From Micromonospora sp. NBC_01813 (GTDB lineage: Bacteria > Actinomycetota > Actinomycetes > Mycobacteriales > Micromonosporaceae), in contig NZ_CP109067.1 in the NCBI RefSeq assembly GCF_035917335.1, forward strand, positions 4,339,001 to 4,403,000: 64,000 nt of DNA. The letters run 5' to 3'. This document shows positions 3,432 through 31,422 of the stretch, piece by piece (within the stretch, counting starts at the first letter, position 1; each line of letters begins with the position of its first letter). The position numbers and the translations under genes are program-made. Below the pieces are notes generated by a model. It did not search any database. It was not told the origin of the DNA and saw nothing but the letters and a program-made list of their open reading frames with translations.

Positions 3432-6253
3432 CGGTCTCCGCTTCCCCGTGAGTTCTCGCCGACCAGGGCGAGGAAGGCATCCTCCAGGCGGCGACGTGGC
3501 ACCACCCGGTCCACCGCCACCCCGGCCCGGACCAGCTCCGCGACCACCTCGCTGCGGGCGGTGCCGTTGACGTCGACGATCAGTCCGGCACCTTCGGCGC
3601 CGACGGTACGCACCCCGGGCAGCCGATCCAGCACCGCCTCGGCGGCGGCCACGTCCGAGACGTCGAACTGCACGCTCGGCGAGTCACCGACGATGTCGTC
3701 GACCGGGCCGGCGGCCACGATCCGGCCCTTGTTGACCACCACCGCGTGGGTGCAGGTCTGCTCCACCTCGGCCAGCAGGTGGCTGGAGACCAGCACTGCC
3801 CGCCCGCCGGTGGCGTACCGCCTGAGGACCCGGCGCATCTCGGCGATCTGCGGCGGATCGAGCCCGTCGGTCGGTTCGTCGAGCACCAGCAGCTCCGGCA
3901 GGCCGAGCATGGCCTGGGCGATGGCGAGTCGCTGCCGCATTCCGTGGCTGTAGTTGCGGATCTTCCGGTGCACCGAATCCCCGAGGCCCGCGGTTTCCAG
4001 CGCCTCGTCGAAGTGCGCATCCGCCGCCGGGCGTCCGGTGGCCCGCCAGTACGCCCGCAGGTTGTCGATGCCGGACAGGTGCGGCAGGAATCCGGGCCCT
4101 TCGACGAGGGATCCGATCCGGGACAGCACCGGTGAGCCGGGCACCAGCCGGTGGCCGAAGACCAGGATCTCGCCGGTGGTCGGCTGGGTCAGGCCCATCA
4201 GCACCCGCAGCGTGGTGGTCTTGCCGGCACCGTTCGGCCCGAGCAGGCCGACGACCTGGCCGCGCTCGACGGTGAAGTCCACCCGTTGCACGGCGACGAA
4301 GCCGTCGGCGTACTCCTTGCGCAGGTTGCGCACGACCAGCGGGGTCTGCGCGTGTTCGGCGTCCACGGTGTGCTCCACCCGGCGGTGCCGCAGCCGGACG
4401 ACGGCCAGCACGACGATCAGCCCGATGGCGATCGCGGCGATCAGCCCGGCGAGCACCCAGCGCCACAGCGCCGCCGAGGTGGCGATCGGCTCCCCGGCGA
4501 CCTGCGGCAGGGTCACCGGCGCGGTGTCGGCCGTCCCGCCGGTGCCGACGGCGACGGTGTAGACGGTCGGCTCGGCCGGGGTGGCGTACGCCTGGTCGGA
4601 GGTGGCGACGACGACCCGCAGCAGGTTGCCGGCCTCGAAGCGGTGCACGATCGCCGGCAGGGTCACCTCGACGCCGGTGGCGTCGGCGATGTCGGCCGGC
4701 AGCCCGGTCAACCGCACCGGGGCGACCAGCCCGCCGGGCAGGTTCATCGTGCCGTTCGGGTCCACGTCGTAGAGCTTGACGAACAGCACCGCCTCGCCGG
4801 TCGGCGACGCGGCCCGGATCGTCACGGTCGGGGCACCGACCACGTCGAGCGGGTCGGCCAGCGGCGCCGAGTCGAAGTGGCCGTGCTGACCGGGCAGGTC
4901 CTGGACGAAGCCGCCGGCCAGGCCGGCCAGCCCGCCGCCGATCGGCAGCGAGGAGATCGCCGCCGGGTTGCCGGCCGGCGGGTTGACGACCGGCTGCGCC
5001 GGCCCGCCGACGGTCACCCGCGTCGTGCCGGTGCCGCCGGTGCCCGGGTAGTCGGTGATCCGGTACCCGGTGGCGACCAGGCCACGGTCCATCGCGTCGA
5101 AGCCGGCGATCCGTGACCAGGTGAAGCTGTCGTCCGGGGCGTCGCCGTTGCCGGCCACGTAGTGGTCGAGCCAGCCGGCGGTGAGGAACTTGACCCGGTC
5201 CTGGTCGGTCAGCGGGCCGGCACCGCCGTCGTGGCCGCCGGTGTACCAGGCGACCCGTACCGGGGTGCCGTTCGCGGCGATGCCCCGGGCGTTGGCGTCG
5301 GCTTCGGCGAGCGGGAACAGGGTGTCCGCGCCGCCCTGGACCAGCAGGGTCGGTGCGGTGATCTGATCGAGTACGCGGTCCGGGCTCGACTGGTCGAGCA
5401 GCGCCACCGCCTCGGGGGTGCCGCGCCCGTCGGTGGCGATCTGCAGGTACGCGGCGCACACGTCGGCGGCGAACCGCCCGCACGCCGGGTCGAGGCCGGC
5501 AAGGTCGACCGGCATGCCCGCCGCCCCGTCCGGCATTCCCGCCGCCCCGGCGGGCAGGCCGGCGGGCACCGCGCCGCTGCCGAAGAACAGCCCCGCCCAG
5601 CCCTTCTTGAACACTCCGTCCACTGTGTCCGCGCCACTGGCCTCGGGCAGGAACGACCGGGCCAGGTCGTTCCAGGTGATCATCGGCACGATCGCGTCGA
5701 CCCGGTCGTCCTGGGCTGCCAGCAGCAGCGCCAGCGCACCGCCGTACGAACCGCCGACCACGCCGACCTGCGGATCCCCGGCCGCGTCGGTGCGTACCTC
5801 GGGCCGCTGCGCCAGCCAGTCGAGCAGCCGTTGGGCGTCGCGTACCTCGTAGTCGGGGTTGTTCAGGTGGATCTGCCCGCCGCTGGCCCCGAACCCGCGC
5901 GCCGTGTACGCCAGGACGGCGTACCCGAGGGCGGCAAGCTCCTCGGCGTCGGCGGCGATCGTCTGCTTCGAGCCGCCGAAGCCGTGGGCGAGCAGCACCG
6001 ACGGCACCGGGTCGGTCGCCGACGCGGACTTCGGCAGGTAGAACGTGGTGTCCAGGTCCACCGGCTGGTCGCCGTCCGGCCCGGACAGTACGGAGATCCG
6101 CTGCTCGGCGGTGGTGTACGGCACCGACTCCGGCCAGAGCGCCCAGGTGACCACCCCGGCGACGACGGCGAGCGCCAGCAGCCCGCCAGCCAGCCGCCGC
6201 TGGTTGGGGCGGGGCAGGGCACGGCGGAGCCGCGCGGACATCGGAGTCGGCAT
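3428..6253 (-). CDS. Membrane-anchored S15-type hydrolase fused to ABC transporter ATPase
   Basis: A 941-residue two-part protein. An N-terminal anchor (about residues 21-38) is followed by an alpha/beta-hydrolase of the X-Pro dipeptidyl-peptidase/CocE type. Its nucleophile elbow is GGSYGG, the acid lies in GGADTLFP, the His in YTGGHDGG, and a jelly-roll C-terminal domain follows. A second hydrophobic segment (about 596-621) leads to an ABC ATPase with Walker A GPNGAGKTTT near 672, signature YSHGMRQRLAIA, Walker B LLVLDEPTDGLDP and H-loop SSHLL. The predicted topology puts the hydrolase outside and the ATPase inside, working with the downstream permease. The frame runs on to 7441 upstream, but that part is antisense to the AAA gene; the ATG at 6253 starts the anchor. 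No frameshift is needed to read both halves. Confidence 0.85.
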   Translation of the reverse strand: MPTPMSARLRRALPRPNQRRLAGGLLALAVVAGVVTWALWPESVPYTTAEQRISVLSGPDGDQPVDLDTTFYLPKSASATDPVPSVLLAHGFGGSKQTIAADAEELAALGYAVLAYTARGFGASGGQIHLNNPDYEVRDAQRLLDWLAQRPEVRTDAAGDPQVGVVGGSYGGALALLLAAQDDRVDAIVPMITWNDLARSFLPEASGADTVDGVFKKGWAGLFFGSGAVPAGLPAGAAGMPDGAAGMPVDLAGLDPACGRFAADVCAAYLQIATDGRGTPEAVALLDQSSPDRVLDQITAPTLLVQGGADTLFPLAEADANARGIAANGTPVRVAWYTGGHDGGAGPLTDQDRVKFLTAGWLDHYVAGNGDAPDDSFTWSRIAGFDAMDRGLVATGYRITDYPGTGGTGTTRVTVGGPAQPVVNPPAGNPAAISSLPIGGGLAGLAGGFVQDLPGQHGHFDSAPLADPLDVVGAPTVTIRAASPTGEAVLFVKLYDVDPNGTMNLPGGLVAPVRLTGLPADIADATGVEVTLPAIVHRFEAGNLLRVVVATSDQAYATPAEPTVYTVAVGTGGTADTAPVTLPQVAGEPIATSAALWRWVLAGLIAAIAIGLIVVLAVVRLRHRRVEHTVDAEHAQTPLVVRNLRKEYADGFVAVQRVDFTVERGQVVGLLGPNGAGKTTTLRVLMGLTQPTTGEILVFGHRLVPGSPVLSRIGSLVEGPGFLPHLSGIDNLRAYWRATGRPAADAHFDEALETAGLGDSVHRKIRNYSHGMRQRLAIAQAMLGLPELLVLDEPTDGLDPPQIAEMRRVLRRYATGGRAVLVSSHLLAEVEQTCTHAVVVNKGRIVAAGPVDDIVGDSPSVQFDVSDVAAAEAVLDRLPGVRTVGAEGAGLIVDVNGTARSEVVAELVRAGVAVDRVVPRRRLEDAFLALVGENSRGSGDR

Positions 6254-6352: not shown

Positions 6353-8578
6353 GTGGCCGACCCTGAACTGACCTTGACCGCCAGCCTGCGCCCTGCGGCG
6401 CTGGACGCCCGTCGGGGCATCGTCCGGCTGCACCCGGAGGTGCTGGCCGCGCTCGGTATCGCCGCCGGCGCGCCGGTGCGGCTGACCGGCCGGCGGACCA
6501 GCGCCGGAGTGGCCGCCCGCGCCGAGGCCGGCGCCAGCCGGGCCCTGCTGTACGCCGACGACCTGACGCTGGGCAATCTCGGTCTGCGTGACGGCGGTCA
6601 GGTGACGGTGTCGCCAGCACCGGAGGTGGCCGCCCGGCGGGTGACGCTGGACGGCCCGGCGGAGATCATCGCCGTGGTGAGCCCGGAGATGCTGCGGTTG
6701 GCGCTGCTCGGCAAGGTGGTCACCACCGGTGACAACGTGTCGCTGCTGCCGCAGGACGTCCTCTCCGACGTGGCGCACCGCGGCCTGATCGAGGCGGCCC
6801 GGCGCAGCCTGGCCAACGTCGTCGGGTACGCCTGGACCAGCACCCTGCTGACGGTGACCGCGGCCGAACCGGCTGACGAGTCGCTGCTGGTCACCATGGA
6901 CACGGTCGTCGGCTGGCAGCACGGTGCCGTCACCCACGGCTCGACCGGTGAGGAGGTCCGCCCGCTCGGGCGGGTCTCGCCGGCCGAGGCCCCGGACTTC
7001 GTCGACGAGCCGCTGCCCAACCTGGACGACCTGCCCGGTCTGCGGGCGCAGGCCGACGAGCTCACCGAGCTGCTCGATCTCGGTTTCCACCATCGTGAGG
7101 TGCTGACCCGGCTCGGCACCACCGTGTCGCTCGGCGTACTGCTCAGCGGGCCGGCCGGATCCGGCAAGTCGGCGCTGGTCAAGGCGGTGGCCGCCGCGTT
7201 GGACGCCCGGGTCGAGGCGCTCTGGGCGCCGGAGGTCGCCGCGCTGACCAACGACGCGGCCGCCCAGCGGCTGCGTCGGGCCGCCGCCTCGGTACGCCGG
7301 GGCGACGCGGCGGTGCTGCTGATCTCGGACGTGGACGCGCTGGCACCACGTGACGAGCCAGGGCCGTTGGCGACGGTGTTCCGGCAGTTGCTGGCCGAGA
7401 CGGTGGCCGCCGGAGCGGCGGTGGTCTGCACCACCAGTCACCCGGAGGCGCTGGACCCGGACCTGCGCGGGCCGGATCTGCTGGCGGTGCAGATCGCGGT
7501 GCCGCTGCCGGACGCCGCGATGCGCCGCGAGCAGCTGACCGTGCTGACCCGGGGCATGCCGTTGGAGGAGGGCGTGCGGCTCGACGACGTCGCCGGGCGT
7601 ACCCCCGGGTTCGTCGCCGCCGATCTGGCCGCGCTGGTCCGCGAGGCCGGCGTGCGGGCGGCGCTGCGGCAGAAGTCGGCGGACGCGCCGGTGGTCACCA
7701 TGGCCGACTTCGACGCGGCGCTGGAGGTGGTCCGGCCGACGTCGATGGCCACGTCCACGCTGGAGCTGGCCCGGGTGACGTTGGACGACGTCGGCGACAT
7801 GGCCGAGGTCAAGGAGATGCTCACCGAGTCGGTGTTGTGGCCGTTGACCTACCCGGACACCTTCGCCCGGCTCGGCGTGCAGCCGCCGCGCGGGGTGCTG
7901 CTGTACGGTCCGCCGGGCTGCGGCAAGACGTTCCTGGTGACCGCGCTGGCCGGCACCGGCAAGGCGAACGTGTTGTCGGTCAAGGGTGCCGAGCTGCTGT
8001 CCAAGTGGGTCGGCGAGAGCGAACGCGCGGTGCGTGAACTGTTCCGCCGGGCCCGCGAGGCGGCACCGACCCTGGTCTTCCTGGACGAGGTGGACGCCCT
8101 CGCGCCGGTACGCGGTCAGGCGTCCGACGGCGGCACCACCGACCGGGTGGTGGCGGCGCTGCTGACCGAGCTCGACGGGGTGGAGGCGCTGCGCAACGTG
8201 GTGGTGATCGGGGCGACGAACCGGCCCGACCTGATCGATCCGGCGCTGCTGCGGCCGGGCCGGCTGGAGCGGCTGGTGTACGTGCCGCCACCGGACGGCG
8301 AGGCCCGGGTGGCGATCCTCAAGGCGGCGTCGAAGTCGGTGCCGCTCGCCGAGGACGTCGACCTGGTCGAGCTGGGTGAGTCGTTGGACGGTTTCTCGGC
8401 GGCCGACTGCGCGGCGCTGATCCGCGAGGCGGCGCTCGCCGCGATGCGGGAGTCACTGGAGGCGTCGTCGGTGACGGCGGCGCACGTCGCGTCGGCCCGG
8501 GACCGGATCCGGCCGTCCCTGGACCCGGCACAGGTCGCCTGGCTGGCCGCCTACGCGGACCAGCAGTCCGCCCGGTGA
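6353..8578 (+). CDS. CDC48-family AAA ATPase with two AAA domains
   Basis: A 741-residue p97/CDC48-like ATPase. The N-domain is a double-psi-barrel type (ARRGIVRLHPEVLAALGI). AAA domain 1 has Walker A GPAGSGKS near residue 266, but its Walker B reads LLISDVDAL, with Ser and Asp where Asp-Glu is usual. AAA domain 2 is canonical: GPPGCGKT near 520, FLDEVDAL near 576, sensor 1 GATNRPD, and the arginine-finger segment LLRPGRLERLVY. Such proteins unfold substrates, in some actinobacteria together with the proteasome/Pup system, though no proteasome gene is seen here. The GTG start at 6353 follows a TAGTCT box (6341-6346) by six bases, so the mRNA may be leaderless. Confidence 0.9.
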   Translation: MADPELTLTASLRPAALDARRGIVRLHPEVLAALGIAAGAPVRLTGRRTSAGVAARAEAGASRALLYADDLTLGNLGLRDGGQVTVSPAPEVAARRVTLDGPAEIIAVVSPEMLRLALLGKVVTTGDNVSLLPQDVLSDVAHRGLIEAARRSLANVVGYAWTSTLLTVTAAEPADESLLVTMDTVVGWQHGAVTHGSTGEEVRPLGRVSPAEAPDFVDEPLPNLDDLPGLRAQADELTELLDLGFHHREVLTRLGTTVSLGVLLSGPAGSGKSALVKAVAAALDARVEALWAPEVAALTNDAAAQRLRRAAASVRRGDAAVLLISDVDALAPRDEPGPLATVFRQLLAETVAAGAAVVCTTSHPEALDPDLRGPDLLAVQIAVPLPDAAMRREQLTVLTRGMPLEEGVRLDDVAGRTPGFVAADLAALVREAGVRAALRQKSADAPVVTMADFDAALEVVRPTSMATSTLELARVTLDDVGDMAEVKEMLTESVLWPLTYPDTFARLGVQPPRGVLLYGPPGCGKTFLVTALAGTGKANVLSVKGAELLSKWVGESERAVRELFRRAREAAPTLVFLDEVDALAPVRGQASDGGTTDRVVAALLTELDGVEALRNVVVIGATNRPDLIDPALLRPGRLERLVYVPPPDGEARVAILKAASKSVPLAEDVDLVELGESLDGFSAADCAALIREAALAAMRESLEASSVTAAHVASARDRIRPSLDPAQVAWLAAYADQQSAR

Positions 8579-8592
8579 CAGTGCGGTGCGGG

Positions 8593-9159
8593 TCAGCCGG
8601 CTAAGTCGGTGGTGAAGGCCTCGTCGAGCCAGAACCGGGCCTGCACCTGGCCCTGCTCGACGCCGATGACCGCACCGCTGCGGCGCAGCAGGTTGATCGC
8701 GGCCCGGTTGGTTGGGGTGGTCCGGGCGACGACGAGGTGGGCGCCGAGCCGGACCGCCTCGTCGAGGACCGCCCGCAGCGCGGCGGAGGCGATGCCCCGG
8801 CCACGGGCGGACCGGCCGAGCCAGATGCCGGTCTCCACCACGCCGACCGGGGTGTCGAGTCGGGTGAGCCGGACCCCACCGACGACGTCCCCGCCGACGG
8901 TGACCGCGTACATGATGCTGCCGGCGGGACCAACCTGGCCGCCGCCGAAGTGGGAGCGGTGGAACTCGCGGAACGCGTCCCGGCGGGCGGCGGTCCAGCC
9001 GGCCGGTCCGGGGACCGGCGGCATCACCTCGCCAGGCTCGGCTTCGGCCACGGCGGCGGAGAGCAACGGCTCGAGCAGCTCGTCTCTCATCGGTGTCAAC
9101 CGCACGTCATGCCGCACGGCGGTAGTCTCCCAGGCCGGTGCCGACTCCGTCTTACTCAT
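8593..9159 (-). CDS. GNAT family N-acetyltransferase
   Basis: A 188-residue GNAT acetyltransferase that would transfer acetyl from acetyl-CoA to an unknown amine, possibly a ribosomal-protein N-terminus (RimJ/RimL-like). The acetyl-CoA loop is SARGRGIASAALRAVL (Q/R-x-x-G-x-G/A), preceded by strand ETGIWLG. The typical NRAAINLLRRSGA motif follows, with Asn contacting CoA and the helix packing after strand 5. The start at 9159 is chosen because a strong GGGAGG site precedes it; the frame is open to 9192 but has no better site. It converges on the AAA ATPase gene with only 14 bases between stops. Confidence 0.85.
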   Translation of the reverse strand: MSKTESAPAWETTAVRHDVRLTPMRDELLEPLLSAAVAEAEPGEVMPPVPGPAGWTAARRDAFREFHRSHFGGGQVGPAGSIMYAVTVGGDVVGGVRLTRLDTPVGVVETGIWLGRSARGRGIASAALRAVLDEAVRLGAHLVVARTTPTNRAAINLLRRSGAVIGVEQGQVQARFWLDEAFTTDLAG

Positions 9160-10558: not shown

Positions 10559-11053
10559 TCAGCGGCGGCGGGCCCGCGACCGCGTGGCCCGCAGCCGACG
10601 CAGCCGGGCCACCAGCACCGGCTCAGCGGCCAGCGCCGCCGGATTGTCCAACAGTTGGTTGAGCAACTGGTAGTAACGGGTCGCGGAGAGTCCGAAGGTG
10701 TCCCGGACCGACTGCTCCTTGGCGCCCGCGTGTTTCCACCACTGGCGTTCGAAGTCGAGGATCCGCTGCTCGCGCTCGGTCAGGGTCGCGCCGGCCGGCT
10801 CGACCGCCGGCCTCGCCGAGTCGCCGTCGGCCGGTGGATCGACATCGACTTGGCCATCTACGTCAGCACTGGCACTGGCACCGGCCGGATCGTCGCTGTC
10901 GGCCGGCGGGTCGGCGGCGAACCGTTGCCGAGGTACGCCGGTCGACGCGCGAGGCTCCGCACCCGGGCCGGGTCCGGTCCGGGGTTCGTCAGCAGCCGGC
11001 ACCTCACCAGCGTAATCGCCGTCCAGCCGGGACGCATCCGCCAGCTTGCCCAC
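10559..11053 (-). CDS. DUF3263 domain protein
   Basis: A 164-residue protein with the actinobacterial DUF3263 domain in its C-terminal half: LTEREQRILDFERQWWKHAG, AKEQSVRDTFGLSATRYYQLLNQLL and a basic tail RLRRLRATRSRARRR. The predicted helix-turn-helix character of the middle part (FGLSATRYYQLL) and the basic tail suggest nucleic-acid binding, but no member has a firm function that I can name. The first about 85 residues are Pro/Ala/Asp-rich and probably disordered; the exact start is uncertain. It converges end to end with the small membrane-protein gene. Confidence 0.8.
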   Translation of the reverse strand: MGKLADASRLDGDYAGEVPAADEPRTGPGPGAEPRASTGVPRQRFAADPPADSDDPAGASASADVDGQVDVDPPADGDSARPAVEPAGATLTEREQRILDFERQWWKHAGAKEQSVRDTFGLSATRYYQLLNQLLDNPAALAAEPVLVARLRRLRATRSRARRR

Positions 11054-22941: not shown

Positions 22942-23646
22942 TCAGCTGGTCTGCTCGACCGCGTCCCGGATCTCGACGAGCGCGGCACCGGCTTCCGCAC
23001 CGGTGCTGAAGTAGAACACGTACAGCACCAGGGCACCGCGGCTCGACCAGACGCAGACCCCACCGGGGATGCCTTCGAGGTCGGCGTCGCCACACCGCGC
23101 GGTGCCGCCCTTCGGACCGGCGTCGACGTCGGTGATGTTGGTCATCCCGAGGCCCATCGCGTCGCCTTCGGTGGCGTCGGCCAGCTCCTGCTCCGGGTCG
23201 GCCATCACGCCGGAGACGCCGGCGATCATCACCAGGTTCTCCTGCTCGATGTCGCCGTAGAACGCGCCGATGGAGCTGGTCGACTCGGGCACGTCGGCCG
23301 CCAGCCCGGCGCCCATCTCCTCGGCGAGGCTCTGGAACTCGGGGTCGGCGTTGAGGTCGCGGCCGGCGATGGTGTCCGGGGTGACCAGGCGGGTCTGGGT
23401 CGCCTCGATGACCTCACCGACGGTGTCCCGGACCGCGAAGTAGGTGATGGCCGACCCGCCGATGCAGAGCAGCAGCACGACGGCGAGCACGATCAGGATG
23501 ATCTTGCCGGCCTTGGACTTCTTGGGCGGCGCGGCCATCGGCGCTACCGGCTGGCCGGGGTACGCCGGGTCCGGGGCGGCACCAGCCGGCGGCACCGGCT
23601 GCCCGCCAGGCGCACCCGGATACTGCGGCACAGAGGGGTCAGACAT
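22942..23646 (-). CDS. Membrane-anchored secreted unknown protein
   Basis: A 234-residue protein with a cytoplasmic Pro/Gly/Ala-rich head (about 1-43, PQYPGAPGGQPVPPAG), a single transmembrane segment (about 47-70, IILIVLAVVLLLCIGGSAITYFA) and an extracytoplasmic domain of about 160 residues. The outer domain has two Cys (GTARCGDADLEGIPGGVCVW) that could form a disulfide. This head-anchor-domain layout is common among actinobacterial envelope proteins of unknown function. It is single and monocistronic. It marks the left flank of the accessory region that follows. Confidence 0.75.
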   Translation of the reverse strand: MSDPSVPQYPGAPGGQPVPPAGAAPDPAYPGQPVAPMAAPPKKSKAGKIILIVLAVVLLLCIGGSAITYFAVRDTVGEVIEATQTRLVTPDTIAGRDLNADPEFQSLAEEMGAGLAADVPESTSSIGAFYGDIEQENLVMIAGVSGVMADPEQELADATEGDAMGLGMTNITDVDAGPKGGTARCGDADLEGIPGGVCVWSSRGALVLYVFYFSTGAEAGAALVEIRDAVEQTS

Positions 23647-23954
23647 GTTCTACCTACTCCTTGAAGAGGGCCCCCGTGGGCGCCTGTCGAAACAGGCAGC
23701 TTGGAGCTGGCTGGCAACCTGCTGTACGCAGGGCCGGCTGATGCTATCGGAGCCAGGCGACAAGAGGTCTGCCCCGGAAGGACGTTCGGGCTCGGATCAC
23801 CATCGAACCGTGACCTTGTGGGCCGACAGAGCCCCAGCCAAGTCTCCGTTGTCGACGACGCGTTCGCTCATCCCAAGCCCGCAGGCTGGTGGGCGCCGTT
23901 TCAACCCTTGGTCGTTGAGTGGCGCTCGGTCACGGGTTGGACTCTCGAGCGTCA

Positions 23955-23983
23955 TTGCGACCTTGGTTGGCCGGCGCTAGGCT
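23955..23983 (+). promoter_or_regulatory. Sigma70-like promoter, TTGCGA-N17-TAGGCT
   Basis: A -35 box TTGCGA (23955-23960) and -10 box TAGGCT (23978-23983) are separated by 17 bases in the 459-bp gap between the unknown membrane protein and the first GntR gene. No plus-strand gene starts downstream; a hairpin with a T tract follows within about 16 bases. The short transcript, if made, would point antisense to the GntR gene. The rest of 23647-24105 shows nothing recognisable. Confidence 0.45.
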
Positions 23984-23998
23984 CGGCGGCATACACCA

Positions 23999-24022
23999 CC
24001 CGGCCTCGAGGGGCCGGGTTTT
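23999..24022 (+). terminator. Intrinsic terminator, GC stem plus T tract
   Basis: Arms CCCGGCC (23999-24005) and GGCCGGG (24012-24018) with a six-base loop are followed by TTTTCTCTTT. This is one of the few classic Rho-independent terminators in the window. It sits about 15 bases after the promoter-like element at 23955-23983 and downstream of no plus-strand gene, so it may end a very short RNA or shield the region from read-through. Confidence 0.6.
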
Positions 24023-24105
24023 CTCTTTGGGCCGACTCTGCCAGGGCTGGTTCACGAGACCCATCCCCAGCCGGGCACGCAGTGGCACTGCAAAAGCGTC
24101 CACCG

Positions 24106-24324
24106 TTACTTCGACTCGGCCACGAAGACGCCGACTCCTTCGAGGGTCTCGGTCAGCCCGGTGGCACGCAGGATCATCATCGCCTTGCCGACGACGGTGT
24201 CCGACACGCCGTACTCGCGGCAGAGCTCGGATCGGCTTGGCAGCTTGGTGCCCGGTGGCCACTCGCCAGACTCGATCTTCGCTCGGAGTTCGTCGGCAAG
24301 AACTTGGTACTGCTGCTTGGGCAT
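24106..24324 (-). CDS. Small GntR-type winged-helix regulator
   Basis: A 72-residue protein that is only a GntR DNA-binding domain: YQVLADELRAKIESGEWPPG, TKLPSRSELCREYGVSDTVVGKAM, then wing GVGVFVAES. No effector domain follows. Such minimal GntR/Kor-like repressors are typical of actinomycete integrative elements and plasmids. The ATG at 24324 has a GGGGAG site five bases upstream. It follows the second GntR gene on the same strand at a gap of 138 bases. Confidence 0.8.
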   Translation of the reverse strand: MPKQQYQVLADELRAKIESGEWPPGTKLPSRSELCREYGVSDTVVGKAMMILRATGLTETLEGVGVFVAESK

Positions 24325-24462
24325 ACACACTCCCCGGATGGCATGCCCATTTGATCACGCCCTGGTTGCCGACCACGTCGATCTACTCGGGGAAGCTTCG
24401 CCGACGAACGATCTCCACAGTCCTCGTCCGTGACACGCCCCCGAGCATCGTGGCGAGTCCTG

Positions 24463-24738
24463 TCAGATTTCGAACTCCGGCTCGTCATCGTCGTCGTCGC
24501 CGTCGGGCAGCAGCCACCGGTCGCGGGGCTCGACAAAGGTGCCTTTGCCCTGGTGGCGCCGGACCAGCCGACGTGCTTCCAGCCGCACGAGCACCATTTT
24601 GATGGTCGTGGCACCGACCGTGTAGCGCTTGCTCATTTCGGCGATCGAGGGCAGCTTCTCCCCCGGCTTGAGCCGGCCGCTGACGATCGCGGCGGCGTAG
24701 GCATCCGAAATCCGGACATAGTCGGGCTGCGTGGGCAA
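24463..24738 (-). CDS. Small GntR-type regulator, divergent from DivIVA-like operon
   Basis: A 91-residue protein with a GntR winged helix (YVRISDAYAAAIVSGRLKPG, EKLPSIAEMSKRYTVGATTIKMVL, wing HQGKGTFVEP) and a short acidic tail (DGDDDDDEPEFEI). The TTG start at 24738 has a perfect AAGGAG site six bases upstream; the longer frame to 24807 would run through the promoter/operator. It is divergent from the DivIVA-like gene, and the palindrome at 24804-24828 between them is its most likely binding site, so it probably represses that operon and perhaps itself. Confidence 0.8.
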   Translation of the reverse strand: MPTQPDYVRISDAYAAAIVSGRLKPGEKLPSIAEMSKRYTVGATTIKMVLVRLEARRLVRRHQGKGTFVEPRDRWLLPDGDDDDDEPEFEI

Positions 24739-24800
24739 TTGAGTCTCCTTGCACGGCAACCCGATTCGATCACGAAACACGTGACTGCGACAAGGACTCG

Positions 24801-24832
24801 TTGACATAGGCGGCTTAGCCGCCTATGTTTTT
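24801..24832 (+). promoter_or_regulatory. Promoter coinciding with a 25-bp palindromic operator
   Basis: A consensus -35 TTGACA (24801-24806), 17-base spacer and -10 TATGTT (24824-24829) overlap a perfect palindrome at 24804-24828 with 11-bp arms (ACATAGGCGGC, spacer TTA). A protein bound to the palindrome would cover the whole promoter. Divergent GntR genes lie on one side, the DivIVA-like operon on the other. The T run after the right arm also makes it terminator-like, but the matched promoter boxes favour an operator. A leader of about 250 bases with no convincing gene follows before 25092. Confidence 0.65.
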
Positions 24833-25091
24833 GGCGAGCACTCCTTGCACGGCAGCTTGGGGCGCTCACCTCCGGTCGGGGCGTGCAGCGAGTCATGCCG
24901 TTGGGCGTCCCGGCCCCGAAAGTTTGCCCTGGTCGCCGTACCGCCAAGGAAGGCTGCGGCGATTGGCGGCAGGGGTGGCCCCGCCGGCAACGGCAAGCGG
25001 CAGGGCCACCCCATCCACCCGTACCCGGCACCGGGCACTACCCGCACCACAAACGAGCGAGGCAGACCACCGCCAAGGGGAGGAACACGTG

Positions 25092-25496
25092 ATGCGAGAG
25101 CTCTGGCGACGCTGGCGACTACGCCGGCAACGACGCAAGATGGCGACCACACCGCCGGCCACCTGGCCGAACGGCGGCGGCAACGGCGTCTACCGGGCAC
25201 CCGGCAGCACCGCTGGCCGCAACCAGCGGGCGGCGGCGTACCGGCCGATCCGGCCCTGGCAGATCCGCAGCCAGCGCTTCCCGACGGTCAGCCGACGCGG
25301 CGGCGGCCGCGGCCTGGACCCCGCCGAAGTCGCCGCGTTCCTCGACCGCGTCGCCCACGACCTCGGCATCCTGTACGCCGAGCTGGACCGCACGTGGGAG
25401 CAGAACGACCGGATCAAGGACGCGTTGCGCCGCTGGCAGTCCACCCAGGCAACCCTGAGCCAGTCCAGCGCCTACCCGGCGGGCGCGCACCGGTGA
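25092..25496 (+). CDS. DivIVA-like domain protein of accessory module
   Basis: A 134-residue protein with a very basic N-terminus (WRRWRLRRQRRK) and a C-terminal DivIVA-like segment (GLDPAEVAAFLDRVAHDLGI, then LYAELDRTWEQNDRIKDALRRW). DivIVA N-domains bind curved membranes and the rest usually forms a coiled coil, which is nearly absent here, so this may be an adaptor rather than a polar scaffold. AAGGGGAGG precedes the start; a GTG three bases upstream is an alternative. It overlaps the next gene by four bases (GTGA). Confidence 0.7.
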   Translation: MRELWRRWRLRRQRRKMATTPPATWPNGGGNGVYRAPGSTAGRNQRAAAYRPIRPWQIRSQRFPTVSRRGGGRGLDPAEVAAFLDRVAHDLGILYAELDRTWEQNDRIKDALRRWQSTQATLSQSSAYPAGAHR

Positions 25497-27346
25497 CCCG
25501 GCTGACACCACCAGCGGGCGGGGCAGTCACCATCGTCAACTGCCCCGCCTGCACCACCAAAGACCCCGGTGCCGTCGCTGGCGCGGAGTGTCGCCGCTGC
25601 GGCGGCCACGGCAAACGGCGCGCACAGCTCGTCCTCACCGTCGCGAACATCGACACCGGAGCCGTCACCTCCGCCACCGTGACACCCGGCTCGATCTTGC
25701 CGACCCGCGACGCCGACAACCTCTTCTGGTGCCTCGATCTGACCCCGGTCGTCGCCGACCTCGCCGACGAAGTCGGCGCGACGCACATCTACGAGCCAGA
25801 CCAGCCCGACGACCCGGTCTTCGCCCCGTGGACCGACCTGCCGAAAGGTTGGCAGCCCGACCTGCCCGCCGCGCAACGTCTCGCCTACGAAACCGAGGCG
25901 ATCGCCGACGAGGCCCGCGACCCGTGGCAGATCTGGCTCGGACGCAGCACCGAACCGCCACCTGCCGACCCGGCACGCCGGCTCGCCAACCTCTGCGAAG
26001 TCGCCGAACTACTCTGCCTCGACCTGGTCATCGAAGCCCGCCGAACCACACCCGACAGTGACACGCTCGGCTGGGACGTACGCTTCGAACTGCCCGGCAG
26101 CCCGGCCGGTGACCGCCTCGCCCCCTGGTCCGACCTGGCCGAAGCCACCGTCATGACCACCGTGAACCGAGCCGCCGCGAACCTGGTCGAGCACGGCCGG
26201 CACGCCCCCGCCCACTACATCGCCCCCCGCACTGGCAACGCCGACGGCGGCCCCGGCACCAGGGACGTCACGAGCCTCGGCCCGCCCAAGGTCGACGTCG
26301 ACCAGCTCGAACGCCGCATTCTCGCCGACTGCACCACCCTGCTGACCGGCGAGCCGACACCCGGCGCGCACGCCATCTGGCGCGACGGTCGCTGGTGGCA
26401 CACCACGCTGCGGCTTGCGGGCAAGGCCGCACACCGGGCCTGGCAGCCGCCCCCGCCCTCATGGCAGGGCCCGCCGATCCCGTACGCCCCGTGCCCGAGC
26501 TGCCCGCCCACCCCTGACCTGAGCCTCTGCCAGTGCCCCCGGATCGGCGGCTGCCTCACCTGCCACGGCACCCACCGGATTTTCCACGGCACGACCGTCT
26601 CCATCTTCGACGGTGGCCGCCGGGTCCGGCACCTCACCTGGCCAACCCCACACCCCACCGAGTACGCCGCCCTACCCGTCGTCGCCCCGCCGGTCGACAC
26701 GCAGTCCAGTAGTCAACTTGTCCGTCAACTACCGCCCGAGTACCAGCTCCGGCCCCAGCTCACCGCACTCGGCTTCGACCCGGACGGCATCGCACCACTG
26801 ATCGACGCCAGCTACCTGCCGGAGCACGATCTGCTCGACGGCCACGTCTGCCTGCCCCACGCCGACGCCGATCCACTGGACACCTACCTGCGGCACGTCA
26901 CCACTGGGCAGCCCGGCGGCCGGATCCTCTTACAGGTCACCCCATCGGCCGCCCCGTCACTGGCCACCATGGTCAGGCTCGTGCACGCTCTCGGCTTGGT
27001 CGTTGTGCTGTCCGTCGCTGACCACCGCGCCAATGCAGGTGCGCCCAACCTCGTACAAGGGCTTCGTTGGGGTGCCCGCGTCGCGCCGCCCGATGCCACC
27101 ACCGACCTACTCCGCTGGGCCCCCGGCGCTCACCACCGCACCGTCTCCCGTGCCGTCGACCATGCCCTGCGCGATCTCCGCAACGCCAGCGACCGCGCTG
27201 TGCCCACCGACCCGTACACCGCGATCCCGGTGCCCACCAACATCAACACCGTCAGTGTTGGCGTCGGCCACTCTCGTGACGTGCTGCTGGTCAGGACGAC
27301 CCGGTGCTCCTGCTCACCACACTCGCCGCCAAGTACCCCGGTGTGA
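25493..27346 (+). CDS. Cysteine-cluster unknown protein of accessory module
   Basis: A 617-residue protein I cannot assign to a function. Two cysteine clusters look zinc-binding: C17-x2-C20-x12-C33-x2-C36 near the start, and C334-x2-C337 with C346, C348, C354 and C357 in the middle. Each sits beside a DnaJ-zinc-finger-like CxxCxGxG fragment (CRRCGGHGK, CLTCHGTHR). The last about 250 residues resemble the protein cut by the window edge at 63063-64000 (for example RQLPPEYQL against WQLPEHYQV, and a matching LVHALGLVVVLSVADH / LVRGLGLALDLTVTDH). It overlaps DivIVA-like upstream and the small gene downstream. Context with GntR regulators suggests a mobile-element or variable-locus cassette. Confidence 0.7.
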   Translation: MTRLTPPAGGAVTIVNCPACTTKDPGAVAGAECRRCGGHGKRRAQLVLTVANIDTGAVTSATVTPGSILPTRDADNLFWCLDLTPVVADLADEVGATHIYEPDQPDDPVFAPWTDLPKGWQPDLPAAQRLAYETEAIADEARDPWQIWLGRSTEPPPADPARRLANLCEVAELLCLDLVIEARRTTPDSDTLGWDVRFELPGSPAGDRLAPWSDLAEATVMTTVNRAAANLVEHGRHAPAHYIAPRTGNADGGPGTRDVTSLGPPKVDVDQLERRILADCTTLLTGEPTPGAHAIWRDGRWWHTTLRLAGKAAHRAWQPPPPSWQGPPIPYAPCPSCPPTPDLSLCQCPRIGGCLTCHGTHRIFHGTTVSIFDGGRRVRHLTWPTPHPTEYAALPVVAPPVDTQSSSQLVRQLPPEYQLRPQLTALGFDPDGIAPLIDASYLPEHDLLDGHVCLPHADADPLDTYLRHVTTGQPGGRILLQVTPSAAPSLATMVRLVHALGLVVVLSVADHRANAGAPNLVQGLRWGARVAPPDATTDLLRWAPGAHHRTVSRAVDHALRDLRNASDRAVPTDPYTAIPVPTNINTVSVGVGHSRDVLLVRTTRCSCSPHSPPSTPV

Positions 27347-27552
27347 CGCTCACCGTGCTCCTCACCCCGGACCGCTACGAAGTCCACCTACCGCGGGAAC
27401 CGCGACCACCCGCCGAAACCAACGCGGGCCCTCTCAAGGTCGTCTTCACCGCCCCGACCCTCGCCGAAGCGGTCGCCGCCGCCGGCTCCGCGCCCCCTGA
27501 ACCGATCGAGGTACGTGCAGCGCAGGGCAGAGACGACGGGGACTGGAATTGA
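27304..27552 (+). CDS. Small unknown protein overlapping the cysteine-cluster gene
   Basis: An 82-residue product from a GTG at 27304 in another frame, overlapping the end of the preceding gene by 43 bases. The segment LLTTLAAKYPGVTLTVLLTPDRYEVHLP resembles the C-terminal end of the paralogue at 63063-64000 (FITEVRRLAATQPGHAATIRLHPDGTHT), where it is part of one continuous protein. So this is either a separate, coupled gene or a C-terminal piece split off by a frameshift around 27280-27300. A TGA at 27277-27279 closes its frame upstream. Confidence 0.5.
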   Translation: MLLLTTLAAKYPGVTLTVLLTPDRYEVHLPREPRPPAETNAGPLKVVFTAPTLAEAVAAAGSAPPEPIEVRAAQGRDDGDWN

Positions 27553-27604
27553 GATGACGCGCGTCACCGGGGTTGCCGGTGGCCCGCGTTGGTGCAGTTG
27601 GGGA

Positions 27605-27647
27605 TGGAGCCCCGGGCCGGGATCGAACCGGCGACATCTCGCTTACA
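27605..27647 (-). repeat. Duplicated tRNA-Thr 3' half (attachment-site copy)
   Basis: These 43 bases match 29919-29961, the 3' half of the intact tRNA-Thr gene, at 42 of 43 positions; the only change is at 27614. The copied part runs from the anticodon through the variable and T arms to CCA. There is no 5' half next to it, so it is not a tRNA gene. This is the classic scar of integration into a tRNA 3' end. Confidence 0.85.
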
Positions 27648-27873
27648 CCTTCTGCCCGCTTCGTCCGGCGCGCCCCGTCGACCGTTGTCGAGCTTTGGCC
27701 GCGCAAGCATCACGAGCAGGTGGCCAGACTTCGCCTCGTGGCGCTCAGGTCCGGCCGGTCTACAAGACCGATGTTGCCTTCTGCCGCCTCGCTGCACCCT
27801 ACGCGTCACTCCAGCACAGGCACGCAACCCAACGCATGCCTTCACACACAGAAAGTCAGCCTTGCGGGGCAAC

Positions 27874-27909
27874 CTGCTAACCTTCCTGCTAATCTTCCTG
27901 CTAATCACG
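27874..27909. repeat. Three tandem 12-bp repeats upstream of the AlbA/GHKL gene
   Basis: Unit CTGCTAATCTTC occurs at 27874-27885 (one change), 27886-27897 and 27898-27909 (last three bases changed). The array ends about 30 bases before the GTG start of the cargo gene. The spacing near a gene start fits an operator array for autoregulation by the winged-helix protein it precedes, but a simple slippage repeat is equally possible. Confidence 0.6.
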
Positions 27910-27941
27910 GATGAGCAGGAAGACGCAGGGAAGGCCCCGCA

Positions 27942-29711
27942 GTGAACGCTGAAGAACTAGCCGAGATCGTGGAGAACCTCCGCATACTGGGCAGCGATGT
28001 AGCAGACGTTGAGGTGAAGAGAGCGCTCGGCGGCCTACCTCGAAGCGTCCGGGAGACTCTCTCCTCGTTTTCTAACACGCACGGCGGCGTCATCATTCTC
28101 GGCCTAGACGAGAGTGACGGGTTTGCCGCCACCGGCCTGATCGATGCCGCGAAGATTGCCGCAAACTTTGCCTCGACTTGCTCAGATGAGATGGAACCTC
28201 CGGTCCGCGCATTGGTGAAGATTCAGGAATTTGAAGGCACACAGGTGCTAGTGGCCGAGATTCCAGAAATTGACCGAAGCCAGAAACCCTGCTACTACAA
28301 GGGTGCCGGGTTAACGAAAGGTGCCTACATTCGCGTACATGATAGCGATCGACAGTTGTCTAGCTACGAAGTTCAGGTAATGCTGTCTTCTCGCGGGCAG
28401 CCTTTAGATGATTCCCAACCGATCCCAGGCGTCGGTCTAGAGGAACTTGATCGAACCCTAACCACCTTGACAGTCCTCCGACTGAGAGAAAGTCGGCCGT
28501 ACGCATACCGCGATCTCGAAACAGACGGGGTCCTACGAAAAGCCAAAATTTTGACTTCTGACGGCAACGGAGACGAAGTGGTCTCGCTAGCCGGCTTGAT
28601 GGCGTTGGGCAAGTACCCACAAGAACACTTCCCCCAACTCATGCTCAGCTTCGTGCACTATCCGACTGACTCTGGGCAAGACAACGAAACTGGAGTTCGC
28701 TTCCTCGACAGCATCGCCATCGAAGGTCCGATTCCCGCTATGGTCCGGGATGCCATGAGCGCCATACGCCGCAACATGGCTCGTCGGTCCATCGTAACCG
28801 GCGCTGGACGCCAGGACATTTGGGAGTACCCCGAGACGGCCCTCAGAGAAGCAATCACGAACGCCCTAGTGCACCGCGACCTATCGCCAGCAGCTCGGGG
28901 CACGCAAGTGCAGGTCGAGATGTACCCCAACCGGCTGGTGATAAAGAACCCTGGCGGACTGTACGGTCCAGTGACCGTAGAGAACCTCGGAGAGGAGGGT
29001 GTTTCTTCGTCGCGAAACGCCTTACTTCTTCGAATTCTGGAAGACGTTCCGATCCCCGGAGAAGAACGGACGATCTGCGAGAACAGAGGGTCTGGAATTC
29101 GCGCAATGGTCGGCTCATTGCGTCGAGCCGGGATGACTGCACCAATATTTGACGACAGAATCTCAGCTTTCGTCGTCGGCTTCCCGAATCACTCCCTACT
29201 GAACAACGAAACAGTGCAGTGGATCACGAGCCTAGGCGAGGCCAAACTAACCGACAGCCAATGTCTAGCTCTTGCCATCCTCCACAATGGATCTTCGCTT
29301 GATAACGCCACTTACCGAAAGGCCGCAGGATTAGATTCCAGGGTGGCCACCATAGAACTACAAGACCTCGTGGCTCGCGAATTAGTCGAGCAGATCGGCA
29401 CTAGAAGATGGGCGCGATACAAACTTTCTCCTCGCGTCGAACAGCACACAGAACATGGAGAGCGCCCGCGTCGCCGAGCACCTGCGGACCGACGGCAAGA
29501 AATCTTGGATGCCCTTGGAGAACAGACACTGTCTCGCGCCGAACTGGCTGATGCAACCGGGCTGACTGATCAAACCGTTCGCCGTTGGCTCCTGGTTCTT
29601 CGACACGAAGGATTGGTAACGACGACAGAGGGCTCCACTTCAAGCAAAAACACGAAGTACCGTCGCATCGCCGGCAGACAACTAGACCAGCCCTTGCCAT
29701 TTACCAGCTAA
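27942..29711 (+). CDS. AlbA_2/GHKL ATPase-like protein with winged-helix C-terminus
   Basis: A 589-residue protein of the Schlafen-AlbA_2 plus HATPase_c_4 type (often labelled transcriptional regulator or RecG-like). The AlbA_2 core is VRETLSSFSNTHGGVIILGL at about residues 36-55, with KGAYIRV further on. The GHKL N-box is ALREAITNALVHRDL near 300 and the G-box is NRGSGIRAMVG near 381. Two winged-helix stretches close the protein (about 430-490, and ELADATGLTDQTVRRWLLVL near 540). It is the only gene in the tRNA-Thr insertion and its codons are visibly AT-richer. Related proteins occur in mobile and defence islands; regulation or phage defence is inference. Confidence 0.8.
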   Translation: MNAEELAEIVENLRILGSDVADVEVKRALGGLPRSVRETLSSFSNTHGGVIILGLDESDGFAATGLIDAAKIAANFASTCSDEMEPPVRALVKIQEFEGTQVLVAEIPEIDRSQKPCYYKGAGLTKGAYIRVHDSDRQLSSYEVQVMLSSRGQPLDDSQPIPGVGLEELDRTLTTLTVLRLRESRPYAYRDLETDGVLRKAKILTSDGNGDEVVSLAGLMALGKYPQEHFPQLMLSFVHYPTDSGQDNETGVRFLDSIAIEGPIPAMVRDAMSAIRRNMARRSIVTGAGRQDIWEYPETALREAITNALVHRDLSPAARGTQVQVEMYPNRLVIKNPGGLYGPVTVENLGEEGVSSSRNALLLRILEDVPIPGEERTICENRGSGIRAMVGSLRRAGMTAPIFDDRISAFVVGFPNHSLLNNETVQWITSLGEAKLTDSQCLALAILHNGSSLDNATYRKAAGLDSRVATIELQDLVARELVEQIGTRRWARYKLSPRVEQHTEHGERPRRRAPADRRQEILDALGEQTLSRAELADATGLTDQTVRRWLLVLRHEGLVTTTEGSTSSKNTKYRRIAGRQLDQPLPFTS

Positions 29712-29918
29712 GGGCCGACAACACCGGCAAAAGGGAAAAGCCGCAGCCGAGGCAAAGTCCAGAAGGGCTGCCGTCCCGCGTGCCATCCAACCTTGCCAAA
29801 GCTCAGTGACCGCAGCCGGCGCACACACGGTTACCCGAGTGGTCGGCGCGGCTTGCGCCCCACACGCCGCCGCCGAAGCCGGCCTGGCTCCACCGGGCTG
29901 GACTTCCCAGGCTGGTGC

Positions 29919-29995
29919 TGGAGCCCCCGGCCGGGATCGAACCGGCGACATCTCGCTTACAAGGCGAGTGCTCTGGCCATCTGAGCTACAGGGGC
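29919..29995 (-). tRNA. tRNA-Thr (UGU anticodon)
   Basis: Complete cloverleaf on the minus strand. The acceptor stem GCCCCTG pairs with CGGGGGC, the D stem is GCTC/GAGC, the anticodon stem CTCGC/GCGAG encloses CTTGTAA (anticodon TGT), and the T arm is GCCGG-TTCGATC-CCGGC. The discriminator is T and CCA is encoded (29919-29921). Its 3' half is the attachment site of the insertion to its left, which left the gene intact. Confidence 0.95.
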
Positions 29996-30129: not shown

Positions 30130-30330
30130 GGTTTCCGTTAAGTCCCTAAATCTGCGGTACTGGTAGGCCGTCCCGGTCTTGGCAGCCGGCCAAATCCCGT
30201 TTACCGTGGCGTGACACGAACGACACGTGGCCACGCGGCCGGGTGCGTCCGTGGGCCGGCGTAGAGCGCCGGTCGCTCCTTCACTCGGATCGTCCGGCAC
30301 GTTCCTGCCGGTGGAGAGGAAGCATCAACC

Positions 30331-31422
<1,092 letters not shown>

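Follow-up and report, generated by a model that had tools for sequence, protein, structure and literature searches.

A one-gene islet between tRNA-Thr(UGU) 3' halves in Micromonospora sp. NBC_01813, a probable remnant of an integrative element

The window analysed here, a stretch of 64,000 nucleotides from Micromonospora sp. NBC_01813 (contig NZ_CP109067.1, positions 4,339,001 to 4,403,000), contains a small islet with a single gene, lodged at the 3' end of a tRNA-Thr(UGU) gene and bracketed by two attachment (att) cores. This islet is probably the decayed remnant of an actinomycete integrative and conjugative element (AICE) of the family that uses tRNA-Thr(UGU), reduced to the type known as cis-mobilizable element (CIME). 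Its anatomy is that of a CIME with one gene and putative att sites.

An earlier note on this DNA had described a second copy, 43 bp long, of the 3' half of the nearby intact tRNA-Thr gene, one low-GC gene bracketed by the two copies, and an island without an integrase at a tRNA 3' end. All three descriptions were borne out. The two copies, which agree at 42 of 43 positions, begin at the anticodon and include the encoded CCA end. The 3'-half pattern had no match in 100 shuffles of the window, and the 31-bp core, searched with up to three mismatches, occurs at two sites in the 7.63-Mb genome, both of them in this pair. The bracketed gene has a GC content of 56%, against 65-75% over most of the window. 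No integrase piece was detected in the att-to-att interval by tblastn with 12 tyrosine integrases, 11 from elements at tRNA-Thr or tRNA-Gly and one from the source genome itself. The cargo gene takes up 1770 of the 2271 bp between the distal core and the tRNA, so that 501 bp of the interval lie outside it, and no open reading frame of at least 90 aa is found wholly outside this 589-aa gene, except for one overlapping the distal core.

Instead of a site-specific event, the tRNA locus could have undergone segmental or tandem duplication, which the direct orientation of the copies would also fit, and a wider duplication had been named at the outset as a refutation of the island. We rejected it, and regard it as extremely improbable, because on the inner side the copies cease to be identical at the anticodon, with no repetition of the tRNA 5' half or of the neighbouring genes. 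Likewise, in 12 intervals from the family, the identity stops at the anticodon or no more than about five bases from it.

The tRNA-Thr locus was compared within a genus sample of seven genomes, the source and six congeners, a check that had been proposed earlier. In all six congeners the tRNA stands between the left neighbour gene and the MsiK-like ABC gene, as in the source, yet none has a tandem att pair at this locus, and a single tRNA 3' half was found per congener locus in the stretches fetched first (10.9-19.6 kb). The left gene lies 683, 2429, 373, 1574, 1263, and 341 bp from the tRNA in the congeners versus 6272 bp in the source. Because this spacing is so much shorter in the six congeners, the strain-specific insertion amounts to about 6.1 kb (about 23.8-29.9 kb of the window). 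The 2.3 kb given in the earlier note thus holds for the att-to-att unit, though not for the insertion as a whole, of which this unit is only the tRNA-side part. Comparison with the six congeners shows that the DNA is foreign.

At the scale of the family, tRNA-Thr(UGU) is an integration hotspot. The 3'-half pattern is present in 136 of 300 family genomes, and at least 16 genomes, the source included, carry same-strand copies less than 45 kb apart on one contig. Twelve intervals were read whole, from 11 of the 15 other tandem genomes, and the remaining four genomes were read as 20-kb parts. The 12 intervals span 0.6 to 19.2 kb. A full-length integrase adjoins the tRNA in eight of them, that of G266 being 90.8-94.9% identical to the seven others, and integrase fragments persist in another three (80 aa in G294, 63 aa in G240, and 44 aa in G156). 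Only the interval of G242, with 559 bp between its cores, has no integrase piece. By eye, FtsK/Tra and Rep proteins like those of AICEs could be made out in G240 and G159. The islet has the core and the crossover side of the other elements at tRNA-Thr. One tRNA displays a series of stages, from long integrase-bearing intervals, through shrunken ones with broken integrases, to the one-gene islet.

We propose that an integrase of the tRNA-Thr AICE type would have joined the tRNA, by a crossover near the anticodon loop, to an element with a copy of the tRNA 3' half. Recombination would restore the tRNA and displace the resident 3' half to position 27605. A later deletion would then have removed the integrase and any replication and transfer genes, so that only the cargo gene and the adjacent distal att site were left, in a CIME anatomy. 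At present the islet is probably immobile, and would stay so without the arrival of a new tRNA-Thr element. In keeping with a CIME, it is bracketed by related att copies where autonomous elements also integrate, and it lacks an integrase; transfer genes were not searched by homology. As for the features of an autonomous AICE, no integrase stands beside the att site, and no rep and FtsK-type tra genes were recognised, with only 501 bp outside the gene and no homology search made for them.

The cargo gene is not restricted to this tRNA. Matches at E ≤1e-40 occur in 45 of 354 family genomes (three candidates scored in each). A species-level scan comprised 44 loci, 41 of which were used after L144-L146 had been dropped as remote or fragmentary; some of these loci duplicate genomes of the family sample, for example Glycomyces L128, which is G163. 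In 14 of the 41 loci, a tRNA piece resembling a T arm is found no more than 1 kb from the homologue, although the one in Frankia L122 is probably due to chance. The density of such T arms is 0.202 per kb near the homologues compared to 0.0475 at 2.5-6 kb, and when the three Acrocarpospora loci are left aside (11 of 38 loci), 0.164 compared to 0.0085. The background was zero both in 78.6 kb of other loci and in 38 kb of the outer parts of the window; the scan is incomplete, as the background locus L012 has a tRNA found by ARAGORN. ARAGORN detected tRNAs in 10 of the 41 loci, and nine were examined, with L141 omitted (tRNA 5.7 kb away). The homologue lies on the 3' side of the tRNA in all nine, and a distal copy is present in two, Glycomyces and Propioniciclava. 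The Propioniciclava interval measures 7.6 kb and contains a 199-aa integrase match. The tRNA-Ser interval of Glycomyces (2.53 kb) and the tRNA-Gly interval of Acrocarpospora pleiomorpha (2.23 kb) are mostly filled by the cargo homologue. Altogether, in different actinobacteria, seven further tRNA species stand within 1 kb of homologues: Gly-CCC, Leu-GAG, Arg-CCT, Arg-ACG, Ser-GCT, Phe-GAA, and Met-CAT.

Single loci show other arrangements. In Nocardiopsis sp. TSRI0078 (L143), the homologue is bracketed by a perfect direct repeat of 107 bp (5697-5803 and 7783-7889), the left copy of which is at the 3' end of a 200-aa ORF, and the target there may be a protein gene. In L092 (G120), two tRNA-Met genes form a 79-bp identical inverted pair (7159-7237 and 10961-11039), 3.8 kb apart, with an AlbA-type gene in between. 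In Nonomuraea cavernae, a second T arm (L129:9673), identical to the T arm of the tRNA-Phe gene (8549-8625), lies on the 5' side of that tRNA.

A second, isolated tRNA-Thr 3' half was observed in the congener G005 (C1:5636132; L167, L173), inverted and 8.9 kb from its tRNA. It has an arm on one side and, judged by eye, tRNA-flank-like sequence on the other, and beyond the arm, NUDIX- and HTH-type (helix-turn-helix) genes resemble those of the G159 element when the two gene lists are compared by eye. No integrase match was found there in 39.8 kb. In form, this is the isolated tRNA fragment in a relative that the earlier note had listed as a refutation, but its inversion, its distance from the tRNA, and the AICE-like genes beyond it set it apart, and we take it for one end of a different element that has been rearranged. 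The arm inside the distal core of the window resembles the G005 arm, and the degree of match in register (22 of 30) was reached in 0 of 200,000 random draws, with G005 picked post hoc.

Several observations weigh against descent from an AICE. The match to the G005 arm weakens with length (31 of 60, P 0.0004). The best in-register match to any of 11 Micromonospora arms likewise weakens with length, from 15 of 21 positions (P 0.0004) to 18 of 30 (P 0.0015), and 29 of 60 (P 0.006), and a hidden Markov model (HMM) of the 11 Micromonospora distal arms has no match in the window arm. An early impression that the window arm matches these arms was not borne out by the HMM, and is kept as weak support. 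On the tRNA side, an HMM of the proximal flank, a stretch conserved in Micromonospora elements, matches G002 (E 8.7e-7) and G004 (E 6.7e-9), which we count in favour of AICE descent, as well as marginally G005 (0.0077), and has no match in the window. The same proximal stretch is also seen outside the distal core in G168 and G254. It may be native tRNA flank rather than arm, and its absence in the window therefore counts for little. As no integrase fragment was found, and no homology search for rep or tra was made, AICE descent rests on the att anatomy and on the post hoc arm match. Furthermore, the recurrence of near one-gene intervals at other tRNAs fits selection or mobilisation in trans at least as well as repeated decay. 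Finally, in seven of the nine tRNA loci examined no distal copy was found, with nothing above the largest of 60 shuffles.

These seven loci would also suit a rather improbable history, in which an unrelated element, present earlier, left the distal core behind as a scar, and the cargo came later by another route, for example by homologous exchange downstream of the tRNA. A further segment to the left of the core, described below, does indicate additional DNA entry at the locus. However, the gene fills most of the space between core and tRNA, as it does in Glycomyces and A. pleiomorpha, which argues against such a history.

The recurrence of the cargo is most elaborate in tandem arrays of tRNA-Gly(CCC) 3' halves. 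With up to three mismatches, 14 such halves were found in A. pleiomorpha, 6 in A. catenulata, and 10 in A. macrocephala, mostly on one contig each (loci L147-L154; the array assemblies are mostly drafts). Together with those of Microbispora, Planobispora, and Planomonospora, six arrays were read. They hold 22 intervals shorter than 4 kb, five with an integrase piece and 17 without. The 13 intervals of A. pleiomorpha range from 1.1 to 18.1 kb; ten are under 4 kb, and none of these ten contains an integrase piece. A 126-bp arm terminates all ten (83-95% identity) as well as 8 of the 12 other small intervals. Among the three tRNA-side intervals with a full integrase, the arm is present in that of Planomonospora (14 kb, 92%) and absent from those of Planobispora and A. 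pleiomorpha. Counted from the tRNA, the AlbA-type interval of A. pleiomorpha is the tenth. Two blocks, pleio_5/macro_5 (shared with A. macrocephala) and pleio_6/caten_2 (shared with A. catenulata), precede it in A. pleiomorpha but follow it in the species with which they are shared. A third block, pleio_11/macro_1, lies on both sides of the AlbA-type interval in A. pleiomorpha, where a like block ends pleio_4. Ten array proteins that were picked match the families DUF6461, SnoaL, PIN, FG-GAP, MazE-like, DUF433, DUF5615, DUF2283, DUF4839, and AlbA_2/HATPase. Array genes were called with a codon-score finder that missed the 589-aa gene of the window, and 'no gene called' is thus not evidence of absence.

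Because of the Acrocarpospora arrays, we keep a rival explanation, unlikely as it seems to us, by which the att core, the arm, and the single cargo gene of the islet form a minimal satellite cassette, mobilised in trans when a visiting tRNA-Thr AICE supplies its integrase. It would account for the intervals of Glycomyces and A. pleiomorpha that the homologue largely fills, for the ten integrase-less A. pleiomorpha intervals that end in an arm common to the 14-kb integrase-bearing interval of Planomonospora, and for the two cassette-sized blocks that switch sides of the AlbA-type interval between species. Yet the arm is missing from two of the three integrase-bearing tRNA-side intervals, the five small array intervals with integrase pieces show that some small intervals are decay products, and no second copy of the islet was seen at tRNA-Thr elsewhere (11 of 15 tandem loci read whole). 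The earlier note had offered a satellite or a remnant. We favour the remnant, because the source genome has no close tRNA-Thr integrase (its best match to the G266 enzyme is 37% identical) and because three of the four other small non-autonomous tRNA-Thr intervals that were read retain integrase fragments; a satellite is not proven.

A wider idea, which we put forward tentatively, is that the islet is one case of a widespread actinobacterial cassette system, in which single genes or small gene sets, each joined to an integrase arm and to the 3' half of a tRNA, would be gathered and reordered behind tRNA genes by visiting AICE integrases. Equally tentatively, such cassettes would carry AlbA/GHKL modules, toxin-antitoxin-like genes and unknown genes, in an integron-like manner, with the tRNA end replacing attC. 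We found no description of tRNA-Gly cassette arrays in Acrocarpospora, or of the recurrence of this cargo behind tRNAs, in literature titles and abstracts, which does not prove their absence from print. If AICE integrases do shuffle the Acrocarpospora arrays, tRNA ends would be gene collection points in large-genome actinomycetes.

The decayed remnant of an AICE, as we prefer to see the islet, has kept a gene with matches to SLFN_AlbA_2, HATPase_c_4, and winged-HTH families, a single-gene module in which a Schlafen-type AlbA_2 domain is combined with a GHKL ATPase and a winged HTH. Profile matches include 2KYY, 3LMM, and winged-HTH proteins; Schlafen 8 is matched weakly, at profile positions 23-59 (E 0.0024). 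The top Foldseek match is 3LMM, the structure of DIP2311 of Corynebacterium diphtheriae (583 columns, E 6e-19, 17% identity), and an HMM match to the same protein extends over the GHKL part. The likeness is limited by a TM-score of just 0.28-0.30 and by the moderate confidence of the model (pLDDT 70, pTM 0.55), and the PDB title of 3LMM names no function. PADLOC matches to the pAgo and Aga models span only part of these models, and do not make the gene a member of a known antiphage system. Outside chromosomes, one homologue on plasmids and four in phages were found, all partial and at 30-36% identity.

Three tandem 12-bp repeats precede the gene. A repeat at a lag of 12 (at least 11 of 12 positions) within 150 bp upstream occurs in 18 of 41 sequences, where 0.0 are expected, and no other lag between 6 and 24 exceeds 3; the set consists of the window and 40 loci, L131 having too little upstream sequence. 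By eye, the repeat sequence upstream of the AlbA/GHKL gene varies between homologues, while the 12-bp period is constant. The protein could bind these repeats through its own winged HTH, and the repeats would then act as an operator. Most likely, the cargo is an autoregulated regulator or a defence-type gene kept by selection. Its recurrence by seven other tRNA species, often behind 12-bp repeats, suggests that something may retain this gene when the rest of an element is lost.

On the far side of the distal core, the strain-specific insertion continues for 3.8 kb (Table 1). No third core was detected at the outer edge of this segment, either by a T-arm scan within 6.5 kb of the gene or by a pattern search of the window. 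Its GntR genes were first read as parts of an AICE. The GntR-DivIVA-607-aa cluster (window 24106-27552) has matches in the six congeners and in three other places of the source genome, among the best four candidates per genome, and five of these regions (three in congeners, two in the source genome) showed neither a match to the integrase set nor a tRNA; the segment is no longer regarded as an AICE remnant. On the opposite side of the islet, an msiK cis-regulatory RNA (RF01747, 49.3 bits) precedes the MsiK-like gene.

Table 1. Coordinates of the islet and its surroundings within the window
Feature	Position	Strand	Remarks
Left chromosomal anchor gene	22942..23646	minus	near tRNA-Thr in six congeners
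Second strain-specific segment, far side of distal core	23816..27604		3.8 kb; no outer att copy recognised
GntR-type regulator, left segment	24106..24330	minus	
GntR-type regulator, left segment	24463..24807	minus	
DivIVA-domain protein, left segment	25083..25496	plus	frame as searched; start not settled
607-aa protein, left segment	25523..27346	plus	paralogues elsewhere in genus; frame as searched, start not settled
Distal attachment core, displaced tRNA 3'-half copy	27605..27647		direct repeat, 42/43; aligned with tRNAs of relatives
Distal inner arm	27648..27677		like the G005 relic-site arm (22/30 in register), weakly like Micromonospora tRNA-Thr element arms
Three tandem 12-bp repeats, possible operator	27873..27908	plus	upstream of cargo gene
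AlbA_2 + HATPase_c_4 + winged-HTH gene, sole cargo	27942..29711	plus	589 aa
207-bp stretch from cargo to tRNA	29712..29918		integrase side in integrase-bearing intervals; no proximal-flank HMM match
tRNA-side attachment core, tRNA 3' half	29919..29961		direct repeat, 42/43
Intact tRNA-Thr(UGU), integration target	29919..29995	minus	ARAGORN, anticodon TGT; Rfam RF00005, 66.7 bits
Right anchor, MsiK-like ABC ATPase	30331..31422	plus	behind msiK RNA 30268-30325

The islet can be placed next to several known systems, with PMC11389934 among the literature compared. CIMEs are defined in PMC5704250. Like them, the islet is bracketed by att sites, is without integration or transfer genes, and occupies a site used by autonomous elements. 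It differs in having one cargo gene, att sites that are putative, and no adjoining integrative and conjugative element in the source genome. Among AICEs, according to PMC3218068, six pSE211-type integrases target a tRNA-Thr gene, elements can stand in tandem at one tRNA, and probable tRNA remnants can serve as sites. The islet lies at a tRNA 3' end, the same kind of site, and its distal arm is similar to a congener relic; in contrast to AICEs, it has no integrase piece and no room outside its gene for xis, rep, and tra. The Dehalococcoides genomic islands at ssrA, 15 of 31 of which are without an integration module and might be cis-mobilizable according to PMC3146451, are likewise tandem islands bracketed by repeats of an RNA-gene 3' end, many of them lacking an integrase. 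There, a serine recombinase acts at ssrA, whereas here a tRNA and a tyrosine integrase are concerned. A likeness to attC cassettes applies to the Acrocarpospora arrays only, which also consist of integrase-less units with a common recombination site; these putatively mobile units use tRNA 3' halves and an arm instead of attC.

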